Of a DNA stretch of 64,000 nucleotides, positions 7,694 to 43,425 are shown piece by piece (the stretch's first letter is position 1; every line of letters starts with the position of its first letter). Both the position numbers and the translations under genes were made by a program. Under the pieces are notes generated by a model. It was not told where the DNA came from and searched no databases. It saw nothing but the letters and a program-made list of their open reading frames with translations. This DNA is from Ananas comosus (lineage: Eukaryota > Streptophyta > Magnoliopsida > Poales > Bromeliaceae): positions 12,306,065 through 12,370,064 of the forward strand of contig NC_033626.1 in NCBI RefSeq assembly GCF_001540865.1. Direction: 5' to 3'.

Positions 7694-8067
7694 CTAAAAA
7701 GAGGATTCGCGGAGCTTGTTGGAGGGGACGGAGACGGCGAGGAAAGGGAGAGAGAGACGCATTTCTATTTGTGCACGCACGGGTCGGCGGGAGTTGGGGA
7801 GCGATCATCGATGCTCTCTAAGAGCAGCGCAGATCACGACCGTTGGTTTCGGAGGCGTGAATGGACGGTCGAGATGGCGCGACCGACCGGGTGGGCGCCC
7901 GCCTCGTTTGAATCGAACGGTCGTGGCCCGTTACGTCGCGCCGAGCCACTTTCGGGTGCTTCTTCTGTTGGGCCTCGGGGCCCACCACCAGCAGATCTTT
8001 GGGCTCACGTGATACACCATTCGCAATCAGAAGGCGCGGACAGGGTTTGACAATTGAGGAAGGTAAC
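7694..8067. other. GC-rich leader and upstream region, no coding support
   Basis: The block holds a CT-rich stretch on the minus strand that looks like a plant 5' leader (candidate first exon of the dehydrogenase transcript, about 7694-7790), then a GC-rich tract up to 8050. Open frames exist on both strands, but their translations are low-complexity and overlap antisense to one another, so I do not call a protein. Confidence 0.35.
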
Positions 8068-8237
8068 ACCGGCCGTCTCTAGCACAAGTGGTAAAGAATT
8101 TGATGGTTGATACCCGAGATCCCGAGTTCGAATTCTAGTTGAATTGAATTTTAGTTGATTCATATTTTCAGCTAAATTTATTTCTAAATGAAATAAACGA
8201 AACTGGTAACATGCTACCTATCTCTTAAAAAAAAAAT
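8068..8237 (+). mobile_element. SINE, tRNA-derived family (copy A)
   Basis: Member of the SINE family that recurs across the window. It has an A-box-like AGCACAAGTGGTAAAGAA, a B box GAGTTCGAATTCTAG, the body TTTATTTCTAAATGAAATAA, then ACATGCTACCTATCTCTTA and an A-tail. It is flanked by a 16-bp target duplication (8052-8067 and 8238-8253; one mismatch). Confidence 0.85.
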
Positions 8238-8253
8238 AATTGAGGAAAGTAAC

Positions 8254-9143
8254 AAAATATTCAATCAATTTGGAAACAAAATTAAAAACAATAATTTTAT
8301 ATTATTAAAAAAAATTAAATTAAGGTGTTCTAGCCTGATGGTGTGGTCCTCAAGCAAGCCGCACCGCACGGCTTTCCCAAAAATTTTACGGTTGCTAGTC
8401 ACAAACGTGGGCCGCACCGCACGGCCGAACAGACGCTTTGTTAACACCGCACAGCAACTTTCTGGAAGGTAGTAGTAGCTTGTAGGCTTTAGGAAAAAAA
8501 CAGCTGGCCGCACCTGTCTGTACTCCTGGTAGGTAAATAGCGACCAACTCACCAACCCACTCCACCCCGTTCCAGTGATGGTCTTAAATTAGTTTTAAAA
8601 ATTAATTTTTATTACAGTACAAAAATAAAATGAAATTCTGAACTTTTTAGTTTTTAGTTAATATTATATAAAGAAACTGTTTGGGCCGAGCCGGGTCTAT
8701 CCACGAATGGGTCACTAGCAGAAAGGTACAGTTGCTGCTGATAGCGTTCTTGAAAGATTGCTTCCTTCAACTCTAAAAAAGTACTCTATGCAGCTTCCTA
8801 CTGAGGAGGATGATTTCTCCATCGATCATAGTTCCATTAATATATCTACAATGTATTATAAATGCACGTTCATAGAAACCCTTTGATCAATCAAATTCAT
8901 TAATGTTATCACTAATATTTCCTAGCATGAAGAAGCTAGCAGCAAAACAATACAAGAAAAAAGTTGCAGTGAAACTTGTTATTATTAACTTAGAACCTGC
9001 CACATTGACACTACAACAAACAATGGTTGAAAGAAGATCTCAGGAGTCAAGTACCATCCTCCCTCATGCTTACCATAACCTCAATTTGTCGAAAATCATG
9101 CTATATATCCACTCCGTTTAACTCGGCAAAGCTGCTAAAAAAA
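8254..9143. other. Intergenic, nothing recognised
   Basis: This is the stretch between the SINE and the 3' end of the CHLP gene. The part near 9143 should be CHLP 3' UTR. I see no domain-bearing frame, RNA gene or repeat structure beyond GC-skewed short direct repeats (GCCGCACCGCACGGC) near 8360-8420. Confidence 0.4.
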
Positions 9144-10901
9144 TCACAAGGCAATCTTGTTCATCTCCCTCCGCAACGCGCTCGCCCTCACCAAGCTCCC
9201 GATGGTGTTCACGGCGAGCTTGAGATCATCCAATGGGTTACCCGGCACGACCCGCTTGTATAAGTAGCTGTCGAAGGTCATCTTCTGCACGTACTCGTCG
9301 GCGCACATCTCGACAAAGGCCTCGCGGGCCGCGTTGGAGCGGTAGAACACCTTCTGCAGCACGTCGAGCACCTTGTACGTCGGCCAGTACAGCTTGTCGA
9401 ACCGCTCCAGGTACTTCCGCAGGTCGCTCTCGTCGATCATCCGCGTGCCGTTCTCCGACCCTTCCACAATGGCCTCCGCACACATCCGCCCGCTCTTCGC
9501 AGCGAAGTAGATGCCCTCGCCGGAGCACTTCGTCACGTACCCAGCCGCGTCGCCCACGAGGGTCACGCGCCCGGACACCCTGCACGCATCAAACCAAAGG
9601 GGTTCAGTTTAATTTCATAGTTTGTTCATCATCCGCTGCTGAAATGCGCTTGCAACTAGTACAATTGATTAATCATCACTAAACCGTACTAAACAAGTCA
9701 GGTATTAGGATTGATCGCGTGTGGCAGGACTGAGATATTCTTTAGATGAGAAAGAGGTAAATTGACGAGTTTTTCATTCTCTCAATTGATTTTAGACATA
9801 AATTCTCATTGAACTATAAAATTGGATATAAATTGGAGTTAAAGTTAACTGCATTTCAGTAATTAATGTACGAGCGTACGTACCTTCGGGGGCGGGGGTG
9901 CTCGGGGATGGGGTGAGCCTCGACGCGGATGATCTTGCCGCCGTCGATCTTATCCCTGGCGCGCAGCCGCGTCGCCGCCTGGAACCGCTTGATGTCGGCC
10001 TTGTGCGTGACGGTGCCGGTGCCGACAGCCACGTGGTCGCACTTGGGGAAGACCCACCCGTAGAAGTCCGGCGACACGTCGTCGCCGACGTACATCTCCG
10101 CCCTCTCCCTGTAGTACTCCATCTTCCCCTCCGGTATCCGCACCCTCTCCTGGAACGCTATGGCGTACTCGTAGTCCCCCGCCCCCATCTCCCTCGCCAC
10201 CCGCGAGTTCGCCCCATCCGCGCCCACCACCGCGTCCACCTCCACCGCCCTCCGCTCCCCCACCGCCGCGCCCCCTTTCGCGTACTCCGTGTAGTGGATC
10301 GTGTACGCGCCGTCGCCGTTGGGATCCCGCGGGGCAGCGGAGGTAGGCGTCGAGCACCTCGCGGCGGACCATGCCGATGAACTCGCCCGGGCCGAGGGTG
10401 CGCCCGATGTCGACGGCCACGTTCGAGGGGGAGATCATCTTCATCTTCGTCACGCGCCGGTCGATAAGGTCCAGCGGGAGCCCAAACTCGTCCACCATGC
10501 ACAGCGGGATCGCGCCCCCGCACGGCTTGCAGTTGTCCAGCTTCCGCTCGATCAGGATCGTCTCCACCCCGCCCTTCGCTAGGGTTTCCGCCGCCGCCCC
10601 CCCGGCCGGNGAGGAAGAGGCCGTTCACCACGGCGGCGCCCGCGGCGGCGGCGCGGGAGCGGAGGTAGGCGTCGAGCACCTCGCGGCGGACCATGCCGAT
10701 GAACTCGCCCGGGCCGAGGGTGCGCCCGATGTCGACGGCCACGTTCGAGGGGGAGATCATCTTCATCTTCGTCACGCTCGGAGCGATGAGGACGTTAACG
10801 AGAGGATTGGGTTCGCGCGGGGCCCGGCGGAGCCCGACGAAGGGGCGGAGCGAGGGGTCGCGGCGCGCGGCGGCGGCGGCGGTGGAGGTGAGCGACGCCA
10901 T
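9144..10901 (-). CDS. CHLP: Geranylgeranyl diphosphate reductase (CHLP), first exon scrambled
   Basis: Plastid flavoprotein that reduces the geranylgeranyl chain to phytyl for chlorophyll, tocopherol and phylloquinone. The minus-strand 3' part is intact. An exon ending HPRPR (9884, donor GTACGT) joins the last exon 9579-9144, which begins VSGRVTLVGDAAGYVTKCSG and ends at TGA. Diagnostic stretches include DNCKPCGGAIPLCMV, VEVDAVVGADGANSRVA, EMYVGDDVSPDFYGWVFPK and the FAD motif LVGDAAGYV. The 5' part is not collinear with the family. An N-terminus (10901-10778) runs into a 120-bp segment (10777-10658) and a short tail. After the N at 10610 comes an earlier block (AAAETLAKGGVETILIERK), then the same 120 bp again (10455-10336). 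The GxGxxG dinucleotide fold falls at the joint and is missing. I take this as misassembly of a real gene, not a pseudogene. Confidence 0.85.
10336..10777. repeat. Perfect 120-bp direct repeat around an N joint inside CHLP
   Basis: Positions 10336-10455 and 10658-10777 are identical and encode VTKMKMISPSNVAVDIGRTL and the following residues to DAYLR. The N at 10610 lies between them. Sequence left and right of each copy belongs to different parts of the protein. Confidence 0.9.
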
Positions 10902-11590
10902 TTTTCCTATCTCCCCCTTTTCTCGATCCTTTTCCCTTCCCCCACCTCGTGATGGGGTGTTGGTTTCGGGGTACTTTTCAGTGATGGGGGGATATAATTT
11001 TGTGGTTTTGGATAGGGTGGCGGAGATTGTGCTTCTTTTCCTACCGTCGGATTGGAGAAGTTGGACGACGCGGATGGAATGTGGATGAGGTATCAGATTC
11101 TCTCTTTTTGTGTTTTTTTTTTTTTGAAATTTTATTTTATTTTGCTAGCGTAATTATTCTATTTATTTATGCGGATGACATTGTGCAACGTAGCTTAGTG
11201 CCCCTTTGTGGAGGAATTCTACGCTGTCGCACTTGCACCACATCATTAATAATAAGTCAATCACATTCCTTCTTTTTAAATAAAAGTATAATAAAAATAT
11301 TTTTTTACAATCATGATGGGACAAATATTTTTAAAAAAATTAATTTGATTGATTTGTTACACCACATCACTAATATACCCGTTGTATTCTAGAATTTTTT
11401 CCCTTTGTGGGATTGCGAGAGCGAAACTTTTATGTTGGACGACGATGTACGAGCGAGCAAATTTACGACGATGTGTGAGCGAACAAATTTCCGACACACG
11501 TGTGACGAAAAAATTAAGATTTTTTCCTTATGATGATTTTTTCATTTTTTTCTCGGTCTGATGGTATGAGTTATTTTAAGATTATTTTTT
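10902..11590. other. CHLP upstream region, nothing else recognised
   Basis: The first 60 bases are a CT-rich (minus-strand) leader of CHLP. The remainder turns AT-rich and carries no gene I can support. Confidence 0.4.
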
Positions 11591-11726
11591 TTAAGAGATA
11601 AATAATGTGCTATCCGTTTCGTTTTATTTTATTTATAAATAAATTTAGTTAAAATCAACTAGAATTCGAACTTCGGATCTCGAATACCAACCATCAAATA
11701 TTTTGCTACTTGCACTAGAGAACGAC
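11591..11726 (-). mobile_element. SINE (copy B)
   Basis: Same family as copy A in reverse orientation: B-box region AGAATTCGAACTTCGGATC and the tail GTGCTATCCGTTTCG near the left end. Flanked by a 12-bp duplication AGATTATTTTTT / AGATTGTTTTTT at 11579-11590 and 11727-11738. Confidence 0.75.
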
Positions 11727-12202
11727 AGATTGTTTTTTATAATTATATCTGTTTTTAAAATAATAGACTTATTTAAATAAAGTTTTGGCTCAAAATTCCT
11801 TTTAGATGTGTTACTTAAACTATCCATTTTACAATTCTGAAAATGAAACTTTATATTAGAAAAAGTAGTTCACTTACCTTCAAACATTCTTCAAAATATT
11901 ATTATTGAGATAGTATTGTTAGGTGATCATCAGTTATTAGTAAGCACTGGAGAGTTAATGTTATTCAATTTGATATTTACAGCACAATTGCTGATTACTA
12001 TTCTATTTCTGGCCTCTCATATGACCACTTTAGATTTTTATTCTAATTGAATAGCTCTAGTTTTTTTTTTCTATATTTAACAAGCTATGAACTTTTTTTT
12101 TTGAGAGAGAAAAGGTTGCATATATACTAATCAATTCGTTTATATTTTTAAATATGAAACAGGCTAAAAATACTAAACAATTCAGTTTCAAACTTGAAAT
12201 TT

Positions 12203-12355
12203 TTTTTTTTTTGAGAGAGATAGGTAGTATACTAACCGCTTCATTTATTTCATTTAGAAATAAACTTAGCTGGAAATATGAATCAACTAGGATTCGAACT
12301 TGGGTCTCGAATACCAACCACCAAATCCTTTGCCACTTCCTTTAGGGATGGTCGG
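12203..12355 (-). mobile_element. SINE (copy C)
   Basis: Reverse-oriented SINE starting with the T-run (A-tail), then GAGAGAGATAGGTAGTATACTAACC and a B box GGATTCGAACTTGG on the + strand. A 16-bp target duplication with one mismatch lies at 12187-12202 and 12356-12371. A degraded partial relative may precede it at 12080-12150. Confidence 0.85.
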
Positions 12356-12958
12356 TTCGAACTTGAAATTTGAATACCAAATATCAAGTTTTTAGCCAAT
12401 ACGTTATGAACTTAGGTTTTTCAAATAGAAAACACGTTTCAGAGCAATTGGGAATTGGGACAATTACGCCTCTGTTTCTGCAGTTGCGGCAAACAAAATG
12501 TTGAGTTCATAGAAAGATTTAAATATTACAAAATTTTGACTGTCAAAGAACACGCAATGACGCAATTCATAAACTTTACTCAGAAAATCGGGTTAGGCCA
12601 ACTCCTCACTAGCCGTTAAAACCAAGGCCCTGGACTCCCTCTTGTGGTAAGTGGTTGAAATTAGGAGTTTGGTGCATCCAAAATTTTCTAACCCCTCGAT
12701 CATCTCATCATACTCTGCGCCACAAAATCTCACCTTCGTCGTCTTAATACACAATCACACCGTCTTTTTCCCTGCTCCCCCACTCCTCAACCTCTCTGTT
12801 GAAGTCTCAACTACACATCTTCTGCTACAACCAAAGCTTTCATTCTCGGACATATATCTCTACTCTCGATCACCTGCTTAAATACACAGGAGGACTCAAT
12901 CGCAACTATTCCTTACTTAAGCCATCCATCACGTGGGCTCCTCTCAAATCCGTTTCCA
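12356..12958. other. Upstream region of the GDSL lipase gene
   Basis: AT-rich to mixed sequence with the probable leader of the lipase transcript in its last 100 bases. I see no other gene. Confidence 0.35.
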
Positions 12959-14062
12959 ATGGAGAGAAGAAGAACCAAGCTGGCCGTTGCAGTGGCTCTG
13001 CTTCTGATCTTCGGGCTCGCGAGCCAGAAATGTTCTTGCGACGTCGTGCAGTTCATTTTCGGAGACTCGTTGTCGGACGTCGGGAACAACAATTACCTCA
13101 CCAAGAGCTTGGCCCGCGCAGCGCTTCCCTGGTACGGGATCGACTTCGGCAACGGCATGCCGAACGGGCGGTTCAGCAACGGCCGCACTGTCGCAGATAT
13201 TATAGGTTATGTACAACTCTTATGATCGAACTCTTTCTGGCCAGTTTTAAGTATTTGATATGAAACGGTGAGAAGTCTAGCCAGATTCTTCTTTCTGAAC
13301 CTTTTAACGAATGTTCCAGGTGACAACATGGGCCTCCCACGGCCGCCTGCATTTCTCGACCCAACACTAGATGAGAACGTGATATTCAAGAACGGAGTCA
13401 ACTACGCCTCCGGCGGCGGCGGAATCCTAAACGAGACCTCATCCCTCTTCGTGAGTATTCATTAAAACTTGGATCACTTCCGCCAAATTTCAAAGTAATA
13501 ACTGTTTGTTGGTGTAAATATACAAAGATAAAAGTTATAGTATAAAAAGTACAATGATTGTCGACGAGTGGATCTAAGTTGAGACACGAAAACCACTCTC
13601 TCTTCAAGGAGATTCAAGTTATATGCGGTTGGCAAAGTTTTCGAATCGATACAGTAGAATACTGGTTTATCCCCTTCAGGATACAATAACTCGACTCCTG
13701 CTGTGGCTTCACTCATTCTGCACAAATAGAGATGAGTCCAACTTTTCACTAAGAAAAATACTTTTTTTTAGCCTCACTCTCTCTCGCATAAATAGAATAA
13801 AAATATTTTTTTTGTCATGTTTAAAGAGTAGATAAGCTTTCTACATATAAGTTTTGCCTATAGGATACAAGATATAAAAGCCATAAGTTACAATTTATTT
13901 AGTTGCAAATTTAATTAGGAGTTATAGGAATAAGTTTAAAAATAAATTTTCATAAATCTCCTTAACTTAATTGCAAATTTAAAAGTCACAATTGAAATGC
14001 AATGGTTATACGAGTTTTACCACAAATGTAAGAGTGAAGAGGTCGCAACTTCACTTGATGCA

Positions 14063-14117
<55 letters not shown>

Positions 14118-15207
14118 CGAGAGAAAAGAAATTAATAATTTATCTAACAATAAAACATTACAACAATAATAAATATAGAGTCACTTTAACGCGCGTGTTG
14201 CAGATACAAAGGTTTNATATATATATATATATATATATGGATTACGAGAGAAAAGAAATTAATAATTTATCTAACAATAAAACATTACAACAATAATAAA
14301 TATAGAGTCACTTTAACGCGCGTGTTGCAGATACAAAGGTTTTCACTCTACAAGCAGATCGAGCTGTTTCAAGGAACGCAGGAGTTCATGCGGATGAAGA
14401 TCGGGCGCGAGGCGTTCTACGTCGTCGCCATGGGAAGCAACGACTTCATCAACAACTACCTCCTCCCCGTCTACGCCGACTCGTGGAACTACAACGGCGA
14501 CACCTTCATCACCTACCTCATCACTACATTAGAGGGACAGCTACGGGTATCGATTAATTCAAACATTTATAGGATTTAGAAAGTCATGCCGAAATAGCCT
14601 GCGCATAATTGAGAGGATCGTAATACATTTCAGCTGCTGTATTCGTTGGGAGCTCGGAAGTTGACCTTTTTCGGGCTGGGGCCGATGGGGTGCATACCGC
14701 TGCAGCGGATCCTGACATCATCGGGCGGGTGCCAGCAGTCGACGAACAAGCTCGCGCTCGACTTCAACAAGCAGTCGACGAAGTTGTTAAGCGACTTAGC
14801 GAGCAGCCTTCCCAACTCCACCTTCAAGTTCGGGGACGCCTACGATGCCTTCCAGGATCTCATTAATCGCCCTTACTTGTACGGTGCGTACGCAAGTCTT
14901 AGCCAAAAAACTATTTTCTGAGATATTTTTCGGAAAATCGAACACACTCGTCTCGTTCATTTGTGTTCTAACATTTCGAGCTACCGGTAATTAAACAGAT
15001 TTCAACAACTCGCACGGGCCGTGTTGCTCGTTGGGGAAAATTCGCCCGACTCTCACATGTACTCCTATATCGACATTGTGCGAAGATCGGAGCAAGTTCG
15101 TGTTCTGGGACGAGTATCACCCGACGGACAAAGCCAATGAGTTGATAGCGAATGTGATCCTCAAGAAGCTCGGGTATAACTCAACCAACGGCACGGACAA
15201 TCCTTAA
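12959..15207 (+). CDS. GDSL-type esterase/lipase, secreted
   Basis: Five exons: 12959-13205, 13320-13450, 14331-14546, 14634-14883 and 14999-15207, giving 350 residues, the usual length of plant GDSL lipases. A signal peptide spans about residues 1-27 (LAVAVALLLIFGLA). SGNH blocks in order: FGDSLSDVGNNNY with the nucleophile Ser; the GVNYASGGGG block with its oxyanion Gly; GSNDF with its Asn; and DEYHPTDKAN with the catalytic Asp and His. The enzyme is predicted to be extracellular and to hydrolyse ester bonds in lipids or cell-wall acyl groups; the substrate cannot be told from sequence. The assembly is damaged in intron 2: a 102-bp piece containing the acceptor and first bases of exon 3 occurs twice around the N at 14216. 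I use the second copy because it is contiguous with the exon. Confidence 0.92.
14068..14342. repeat. (TA)n tract and duplicated 102-bp segment at an N joint
   Basis: A long (TA)n run (about 14068-14113) is followed by a segment at 14114-14215, the N at 14216, another (TA)n run and an identical copy at 14241-14342. The pattern is two unmerged contig ends within a microsatellite. Confidence 0.85.
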
Positions 15208-15599
15208 GGTTCTGCAATTAGTAAGTCGTAGTATATTCACTGTTTGGCGTGCGTTGCCACGGTGAAAATAAGTGAAACGTGTGCTTGTTATTTTCTTAGC
15301 CTACAAAAATTTCACAGCAAGTGCGCGCGCGCGTGTGTGTGCATATATGGATGCGTGTGACATTGTATAAGTAGGAACGAACATATGTGGAGTTATGGTG
15401 GTTAATGTTTGGTAGTAGTTGGAACAACTAAGAGGCTTGTGCGTGTTCTTAGTCACCACGTGCTAGGCAAACGATTTAAAAAATATTGGGAGACTTTACC
15501 CTCAGAGGTTAAATTAAGTCACATTTGTTGTGCATTAAGTTTTTTTTTGGTTCCTATCAAACGCTTGATTTGTAATTCTCAATTTGAGATGGGAAGTTT

Positions 15600-15663
<64 letters not shown>

Positions 15664-16248
15664 GGACGCAAGAGGTTCCATCTGATTCATGTTGACTCAA
15701 ACTAGAACCAAATATATATATGATTTTTTAAAAAAATCTAAAAATTCAAGTGATACACATGCGCGCAATAAACTCTCACTACTTGAGATCACAAGTCGAA
15801 TAACAATCACTTCGCGAATGACTGGTTAGTCCTAAGAAGTTATTCAGAGACTCAGGTTCTACTGTGTATTTGAAAACTCATGGGTCTATGGACCGAACAC
15901 TGTTATTAACCGCGACACTCTCTCTCACTCTCTCTCTTCCCTTTTTCTCTAACCCTAGATTTTTTTTTTCCCATTATTTGTTGAACATTCTTTACTCTCT
16001 CATCTCTATTGATAAGTTCATTAATCTTGATAAATAAGGTATATAGTCTACTAATTTTTTTTGAAAATAAAGAAGATCACCGAAATTTCTAATCCAGATA
16101 AAAACAAAATTTCTGGATCTATCTTGAGGCTGGTTTTGCACCCCACACATCCAATCCTGGTGCGTCCCAATCCACACTTCCTCCTTTCAACTGTACATGT
16201 TTATATTTTATGTGCAAATTTTTTGCATATAAAATAATTTTTTTATGA
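15208..16248. other. Intergenic with (CA)n microsatellite
   Basis: Holds the 3' flank of the lipase gene, an ACAC microsatellite at about 15602-15657 and AT-rich sequence. No gene is supported. Confidence 0.45.
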
Positions 16249-40463: not shown

Positions 40464-41301
40464 NTTAAATAAATAAATAAATTAATTAAAATTTATTACA
40501 ATGGTTTTTAAAGTTGTAGAAAAATCTTTTTTCCTTCTCTCTCATATTCAATCTCTCTCTCTCGTATTAATTTTTTTATCTTTCTTTTTATATCAGCTTT
40601 AATCTCCCTCACTCTCTCAACTTTAAATCTTTCTCTCTCTCTCTCTTTCGAATCAAATCTCTCTCTCTTTTTTTTCAACTTAAAATCTCTCTTTTTATTC
40701 AAATCTCTCTCTATATTCCAATCTCATATTTCTTTTTATTATAGTTAATCGGCCGCCCATCCTTCTTTCTTTCTCTAATTTGTATAATACTAATGGAGTT
40801 AGGTAATTATACTCCTATGGGTGGGAGGGAGTTCCCTTACTCTAATCATGAAACTCCACTTAGAATAAGGGTTCACTTAGGTTATAATGGTTGATCTAAT
40901 GAATCACGCAAATCGGTTTGTGGCAGTATAAAAAAATAAGGATAACCTAATCATCCTTAGAAATTTTCTATCGCGCTTGGTTTGCGTGGGTATCTCATTA
41001 CGATTGTTTTGTTTTATTTTTTGCTCCAGGTTTACAGCCGTAGTGTTGGCACAACCGCACGTTCTAGGTAATGAGGCACGAAACGTGATTAAGCATGCTG
41101 GATTAGGTCATTTACCCGGATTAATATCTGCGCCTAATTTAACATCCGGATTTAGGACCGGACAGGAGCGAAGAGTACGTTTCTTTCTATTGTATATTTA
41201 AAAAAAATCCAACACCTTCTTAGAGGAAGGCCATCTATCTATATTACTTTGATATATTACTTTGACCTATTGAGAAGTTTTCTCAATATATATATATATA
41301 T

Positions 41302-41841
41302 CAACTCGATCTTATGAGAGCTATCATTTGCTCGGCAAAATGATAGCTCAACAAAAGCTACTGTCTCGAAGGTTTAATTGCTAGCCGAGGCAATTTATAC
41401 TAGATTTGGTAAATTTGATGGATCTTTAGTTTAAAGTGCGTGAAAGCTATAATAAAAAATAGGTAGATCATTTGTTTTTTTACTTACCGACTTTTACTTA
41501 TAAGAAATTTTTTACTACTATCCTCAGAACATTAGTTCTAGTTCTCATATTTAGAACAAAATTTATCAAATTTCTTAAAAGATTATTTTTAAGTTAACTA
41601 AACCTATAAAAATGTGGCAATTTGCTCTTTTACAGGGAATAGGTGGTAATTTTAATGTTTAAAACTTTGGGAAACTAATAATCCGTTTACTACAGCTTTT
41701 CTAAACTTTAAACTAAAGATTTGTGAAGTTCACCATATCTAGTACAAGTTGCCTCGGCTAGCAGTTAAACCTTCGAGATAGTAGCTTTTGTTGAGCTATC
41801 ATTTTGCGGGGCAAACGATAGCTCTCATAAGATCGAGTTGA
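41302..41841. mobile_element. Foldback-type element with ~150-bp inverted repeats
   Basis: Arms 41302-41452 and about 41694-41841 are reverse complements at high similarity (CAACTCGATCTTATGAGAGC at the left, its complement at the right; also AGCCGAGGCAA and CTTTAGTTTAAAGT). The 240-bp centre has no coding capacity. The element sits in (TA)n/(GA)n sequence, so a target duplication cannot be defined. Confidence 0.75.
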
Positions 41842-41848
41842 GAGAGAG

Positions 41849-41886
<38 letters not shown>

Positions 41887-42166
41887 TTTTTTATATTTTT
41901 TATATATATATAACTTTTTCAGTAGATTATAAAAAAATTTTTTTTATGTCAGGTTTAATATAGATGCACGGTAACCGTCATGATTAATTCTTCTCTGTTG
42001 CGGTCGAGTAGGGTAAAGCCTCGGTGGTCGTACTTCCTAATCTTATAATACGTTTTATATACTTCTCTTAGGAGTAAAACAAACCAACCAGTTGCGTGTC
42101 AATACGTATGTATGTAGACATATACATCTAGATGCAGGCATCATTAAACTCTAGGCGAGTTTTAAT

Positions 42167-43252
42167 TACCGCGTTTGAAGCTTGCTAGTTCTTGAACGAC
42201 TCACGCCGCCGCTGCGACATCGTCTTAATCGACGGGGGCTGCTGAAACACCTTCAGCAGAATCTACAGTTCCTCCTGCCTCATCTGCAGTGACTCCACGT
42301 CGCCGGACAACGCTCTTGAACCCCTCTAGTTATGGCTGATCCCGCGCATTGTCTCCTTAACGCCGCCAACTCCAGACGTCCAGACCGACGAGCTGCAGAC
42401 CTGTCTCGGCCTTCGTAAGAGCTGCAGTAGCTCGTGGGCTTGCTGACCCCGCGGTGGATGAGGCTGGCCCTCAGCCTGGCGTTGCCCGCGTCTTCCTTCT
42501 TCTTCTCCTCGCCGTCGCCGCCGATGCTGCTGTCGCTGCTGCTACTACGCCGACGTAGTCTCCGCCGCGGCCTCTCCGTCGACTGCGCGAAGCGGGAGGC
42601 GTAGCGGTAGGACCTCTTCCGGCGGTCGCCGCAGCCGTGCGACCGCAAGCAGACCCGGTGGCAGCACGACGAGCCGCCGAAACGCCATGACGACGTCGGG
42701 TTCCTGAAGATGAAGCACTGGTGGTAGCACGAGTAGCTCCCGTGGGCGCACAAGTGGGCGTTGGTGCTCGAGCTGAGGCCCAAGAAGAAGGCCCGGTGGT
42801 TCCGGCTCGGGACGAGACAGAGGCCCTTACAGCCCACCTAGGAGTGCAGCGACGTCGAGAACAGTCGGTGGCGCACGCGGCGCGAGAGGCGCTACGCGGA
42901 GCACCTCGTCGTGATGCCGCTGCACCTAGTTCTGCGGTGGTTTTCCTTGGCCCGTGGCCGCGAGCTGTAGAAGATACCCGACCGCGACCGCGTCCGAGAC
43001 GACAAGGAGTATCTCTTCCGGATGACCGTAACCTTTTAAAGTATGCCGGTCGACGAGCTCGTCTGAGCGGCGCGGACGCCGAAGCCACGGAGCCCCTAGT
43101 AGAGGGAGGCGGCGAAGAAGGTGTTGCGGATAACCTTTACGTAAAGACCCTCGCACAAGCTGCGGGAGCTGTACCTGGACTGGAGGAAGCGCGACCGCGA
43201 GCAGTTAAGCCTCAGGGCGCCACTCGCCGAGTAGCCGCGGTAATTGTATATT
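42167..43252. pseudogene. ARM-repeat membrane protein exon, readable only by complement without reversal
   Basis: Complementing each base while keeping left-to-right order gives an ATG at 42167-42169 and 361 open codons to a TAA at 43250-43252. The protein is unmistakably plant-like: LTRFALRIAILEKAASGVG (from residue 139), WATVVLLGGFAVLL (membrane helix), LIEGTRVFTRNHELD, KRNRAPALDIFYGLALAQAL, EKAYWHWKISYGQLLEQ (from 283) and RRFFHNAYWKCISGSVFDAL (from 315), then NSESRGERLIGAI. These match, in order, the N-terminal membrane part of the plant ARM-repeat superfamily proteins (At5g18980/At3g06210 type), whose ARM repeats would follow. Neither true strand gives any family match; the frames there are GC-rich artefacts. 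As written, this DNA could not express the protein. Type 'pseudogene' is the nearest label; I regard it as a polarity error. Confidence 0.9.
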
Positions 43253-43425
43253 TTTTGTAATATTAAATAACATGGCTAATTAATATTACCGTGCGAACCA
43301 AACACAGAAATTTCACATTCTTAGTAATAGGATGAATAGAAATAAGATTCTCGGATATCTTTTTTTCCTAGTAATCTTTCACAATGCGAACCAAACGCAC
43401 CCTATAGTTTATCCTTTATTAATAA
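43253..43425. repeat. MITE-like fragment in normal polarity
   Basis: Two direct occurrences of GCGAACCAAAC(A/G)CA at about 43293 and 43387 enclose about 100 bp of AT-rich DNA. The right one reads GGGTGCGTTTGGTTCGC on the minus strand, the usual end of a common MITE class. Boundaries are uncertain. Confidence 0.4.

Follow-up and report, generated by a model that had tools for sequence, protein, structure and literature searches.

Within the window (the whole 64,000-nucleotide stretch that was analysed, C6:12306065-12370064 of the genome), positions 40465 to 43241 form a patch whose letters stand in reverse order without having been complemented. The features at this locus are given below, with the evidence for each in parentheses; "complement-only" refers to the string obtained by complementing each base and keeping the left-to-right order.

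40464, no strand: single N, the residual gap beyond the patch (its position; complement-only similarity to locus L023 begins at 40466)
40465 to 43241, no strand: the whole patch, 2777 b, string-reversed and uncomplemented (both edges, orientation score, seam tests)
40465 to 40996, no strand: reversed, the greater part of a transposon, TE1; its remaining end lies at 43242 to 43404 (L023 similarity, terminal repeats, copy matches)
41286 to 41914, no strand: reversed second transposon, TE2, with long inverted-repeat arms (copy searches, C18 alignment)
42167 to 43241, no strand: reversed 5' part of a gene on C18, codons 1 to 358, readable only when complemented (translation, C18 match, tblastn)
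43242 to 43404, plus strand: ordinary sequence, the terminal part of TE1 and the true neighbour of base 40465 (genome copies as written)

An earlier note on this DNA had described a complement-only open reading frame of 361 codons at 42167 to 43252. We reproduced this frame from its ATG to its TAA, and all five amino acid stretches quoted in the note occur in its translation. The length of the frame is by itself weak evidence, because frames as long as 361 codons arose in 14 of 2000 Markov-simulated versions of the GC-rich stretch; a chance origin, which the length leaves possible, is ruled out by homology. A protein search with the complement-only translation, by which the note had proposed to check the frame, found homologues among plant proteins: 5 of the 7995 scored candidates have E ≤ 0.001, the top match being P0002 from Ananas comosus var. 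bracteatus (E 1.8e-68, 41% identity, 79% of the query covered) and the others coming from Eragrostis, Selaginella and one nameless entry. With tblastn, the complement-only string was matched by 6 of 6 queries, which were the five homologues (P0002 at E 9.5e-62) and the C18 protein (98.6% over 358 aa), whereas the window as written gave no match to any of them on either strand at E ≤ 1e-3, just as the note had stated for the real strands.

The first 358 of the 361 codons are those of the normal C18 gene of the same genome (99%), a single open frame of 582 codons in normal form. The last three codons and the stop fall beyond the breakpoint at 43241/43242, in ordinary sequence. What had been described as a 361-codon protein is the 5' portion of this gene, covering 358 of its 582 codons. 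The C18 gene product is similar to uncharacterised plant proteins across conserved blocks, which bears out one part of the earlier description as a plant ARM-repeat membrane protein, but the ARM assignment was not confirmed: no ARM model is among the Pfam matches of the C18 protein, and DUF7846 (E 0.0014) and Nup192 (E 0.02) both fall below the Pfam cut-off. In the genome, the translation matches C18:3327965-3329038 (minus strand, 99% over residues 1 to 358, stop-free) and C18:3275343-3276422 (plus strand, 94%), and more distant family members lie on C18, C13 and C4. Three family members lie in C18:3227120-3329038, an interval of about 100 kb, and the proteins of two are 94% and 99% identical to that of the patch; the cluster appears to stem from a recent local duplication.

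The patch is about 2.5 times as long as the open reading frame. At its left edge, the complement-only similarity to L023 sets in beside the single N. Its right edge is exact to the base: with 43242 onward as written as the query (841 first-look candidates), query base 1 is where all 41 of the matches listed begin, the window's match to itself included. For an orientation scan, a two-state 6-mer model was trained on genome stretches other than the window; it called 40485 to 43382 abnormal and everything else in the window normal at penalties of 8, 12 and 20; at a penalty of 6 there was an extra weak call of 646 b at 13051. The orientation score of the patch is -56.7, and a score as low occurred in 0 of 161 random-locus pieces of the same length (lowest, 6.4) and in 0 of 112 other window pieces of patch length (lowest, -4.5). 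Training an orientation score on the window only, cut into 1-kb pieces, gave too much noise, and that score was dropped. Outside the patch, no other wrong-polarity match was found in the window among the matches listed, which represent a fetched sample of loci only, and a search of a plasmid collection gave no match, as expected.

We also considered an abnormal part that starts only after 41914, with 40465 to 41914, which matches the genome as written, counted as ordinary sequence. This was refuted because the as-written matches are the minority and the nine loci fetched from among them carry the element in the wrong polarity. As written, 40465 to 42166 (the transposon pair) had 327 first-look candidates in the genome, and in complement-only form it had 7095; 40 were scored in each case. 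At 9 of the 9 other as-written loci that were fetched (L003 to L011), the element has to be complemented before it matches the normal reference set. The 6-mer model called 6 of these 9 loci abnormal at a penalty of 12 and 7 at a penalty of 6, and never called L007 or L011. An N run is present in 5 of the 9 loci, with none within the fetched stretch of the other 4. In 4 of the 5, namely L003, L005, L008 (one N) and L011 (25 N), the complement-only match ends 0 to 6 bases before the N run; in L007 it ends 378 b before it. In L003 and L005, as-written similarity starts again directly after the N. A Gypsy pol fragment, whose polarity is certain because its open frame proves it, had 3655 candidates as written versus 49 complement-only, and with 40 of these 49 scored, the best of the 41 matches listed is 95% identical over 892 b and another is 82% identical over 1198 b. 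The suggestion of the earlier note that such errors may sit unnoticed elsewhere thus holds at least within this assembly. The corresponding wrong-polarity ratios, 4.4% for the transposon pair and 1.3% for Gypsy pol, refer to unscored first-look candidates of repeats only and are not a share of the genome. At C19:1419166-1434548, three wrong-polarity Gypsy pol matches lie on the same strand within 15 kb; this is perhaps one long reversed patch or several close together. As a separate observation, the unplaced contig C3084 has at 8040 to 16128 an array of many head-to-tail TE2 copies.

The window has six single-base Ns in 64 kb, at 10610, 14216, 26576, 40464, 49266 and 52180, and only the N at 40464 has a clearly reversed neighbour. 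For the flanks of the Ns at 14216, 26576 (right) and 52180 (right), the scores fall in the lowest 5% of the 1000-b background; they are ambiguous, so that short patches there are compatible with the scan. In a random sample the scan detects no reversed neighbour next to most of the N runs, and the error is therefore not general to all gaps. Across 20 random 10-kb loci (189,210 b without N) there was one orientation call, L042:4978-6113 (1136 b). By eye, L042:4978-5927 consists of tandem units of about 50 b and adjoins a 100-N gap. The repeat also occurs elsewhere in the genome as written (136 first-look candidates), it inflates the score of this locus, and the call is ambiguous.

Reversing a string gives the reverse complement of its complement, and for this reason the gene alone cannot separate reversal from complementing. 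A patch complemented in place, with the base order right and the letters alone wrong, would explain the open reading frame and the C18 match equally well. When the seam is rebuilt by joining the string-reversed patch to the flank at 43242, one 713-b L023 match spans the junction, whereas with the patch complemented in place none does. Joining the reversed 40465 to 40996 to 43242 to 43404 restores TE1 as a transposon of 695 b, with GGGTGCGTTTGGTTCGC near one end and GCGAACCAAACGCACCC near the other as its exact 17-b terminal inverted repeats. The restored TE1 is matched end to end (from query base 1 to 8 through 693 to 695) at 94 to 97% by 40 of the 40 genome copies scored, of 956 candidates. 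In the true sequence, base 40465 therefore lies next to 43242. The patch is thus reversed and not complemented, its true order being flipped end to end; that the letters alone are wrong is very improbable. The explanation favoured in the earlier note, a patch written in the wrong polarity, is upheld as regards polarity, but the patch was reversed without complementing and not complemented without reversing. Five of the other loci were put through the same seam test. Reversal restores the transposon of L005 (596 bits, with none under the complement model) and that of L011 (852 bits versus 200 for the complement model), and L003, L007 and L008 have no seam-spanning match under reversal; in L003 the complement model gives a 70-b match of 79.7 bits. 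Wrong-polarity sequence is thus present at other loci of the same assembly as well, and at two of them the same reversal makes a broken transposon whole again.

The patch continues without a break into the contig starting at 43242, has the N at its far end, and runs in string order outward from the contig, a layout that an outward extension attached unturned would give. During gap filling, new sequence would have been added outward from the left edge of the contig, and this lengthening string, whose first base lay nearest the contig, would have been placed before the contig without turning. We infer that the extension may have strayed from TE1 into TE2, jumped inside TE2 to the C18 copy of TE2 and run on into the C18 gene, stopping at codon 358. 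With the patch back to front and uncomplemented, this piece of gene is readable only in a direction that real DNA never uses, and if the extension strayed in this way, C6 probably lacks such a gene.

The alignment with C18 bears on whether a gene exists on C6 at all. In complement-only form, 41285 to 43241 is 97% identical to the C18 gene and its 5' flank over 1976 aligned columns. The identity of TE2 to its C18 copy rises from about 80 to 94% per 100 b to nearly 100% near 41637. Between 41637 and 43241 the patch shows 8 differences from C18, of which two fall within a TA run, five within a coding stretch of low complexity, and the last is at 42688. The match to C18 stops sharply at 43241, after codon 358. 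The rise in identity points to a jump of the extension into the TE2 copy on C18, with 41637 as the likely jump point judging from the alignment, in which case the gene on C6 is probably not real. It is also conceivable that the reversed patch holds a true third copy or second allele on C6, without any jump to C18. Such a copy would fit the few differences from the C18 copy, six of which are coding substitutions, and the heterozygosity of F153, which is given as 1.89% in the accessible part of PMC6139296. However, it would have to combine only 8 differences and long identical runs over 41637 to 43241 with an outer TE2 half of clearly lower identity, and codons 359 to 582 are nowhere in the window as written. 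We consider a true C6 copy unlikely, if by no means absurd. That the patch is real plant DNA, made by some form of wrong-polarity strand copying, has its presence in the assembly as its sole support, but in several loci the patches lie against N runs, and they contain sequence that is almost the same as in normal copies. We know of no recombination or replication route that yields a wrong-polarity strand, which counts further against this reading, and we give it next to no credence. Overall, the patch is almost certainly an assembly artefact and not biology. We tentatively put forward, as something that could well be the case, that a gap-filling bug wrote reversed, uncomplemented edge extensions throughout the reference, perhaps amounting to megabases of repeat-rich sequence, and that the same program possibly did so in other contemporary assemblies.

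The numbers of the assembly point to F153; if it is F153, many pineapple studies use it as their reference, and reversed patches would add to it false cultivar-specific sequence, false k-mers, spurious open reading frames and false repeat families. BLAST, read mapping and gene finders cannot trace such patches to their source. A cheap test for any assembly is a plain reversed-string search combined with a seam check and a 6-mer orientation scan. The accessible part of the paper on GL1 (PMC8824783) gives 15,973 F153-specific regions, 24.18 Mb in all, that are absent from two other pineapples, and we infer that reversed patches could count among these regions.

Like an ordinary contig inversion, the patch is a piece turned end to end, but an inverted contig is reverse-complemented and is readable on the other strand, whereas by tblastn the patch is readable on neither. 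For F153 v7, the accessible part of the MD2 v2 paper (PMC8774480) describes large gaps as well as chimeric regions. The patch resembles these chimeric regions in being a misassembly, apparently in the same reference. According to that text, however, the chimeras were found by ordinary alignment, a linkage map and Hi-C, whereas a reversed patch is invisible to any two-strand or six-frame search for its source. In the partially accessible open-licence literature, we found no report of reversed, uncomplemented assembly sequence or of such a fault in F153 or in a gap filler. The available text on PBJelly (PMC3504050) describes extension of flanks at contig edges and defines a gap as 25 or more N. 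We use PBJelly as an example of a gap filler only, since no text that we saw ties it to this assembly. Unlike the patch, a correct extension keeps normal polarity, PBJelly does not account for the single-N gaps, and 1.6 kb of the patch is nearly indel-free, which is unlike raw long reads. The likeness to its gap-edge extension lies in the arrangement, with new sequence on the edge of a contig, the remaining gap beyond it, and runs of 25 N that are also present here.
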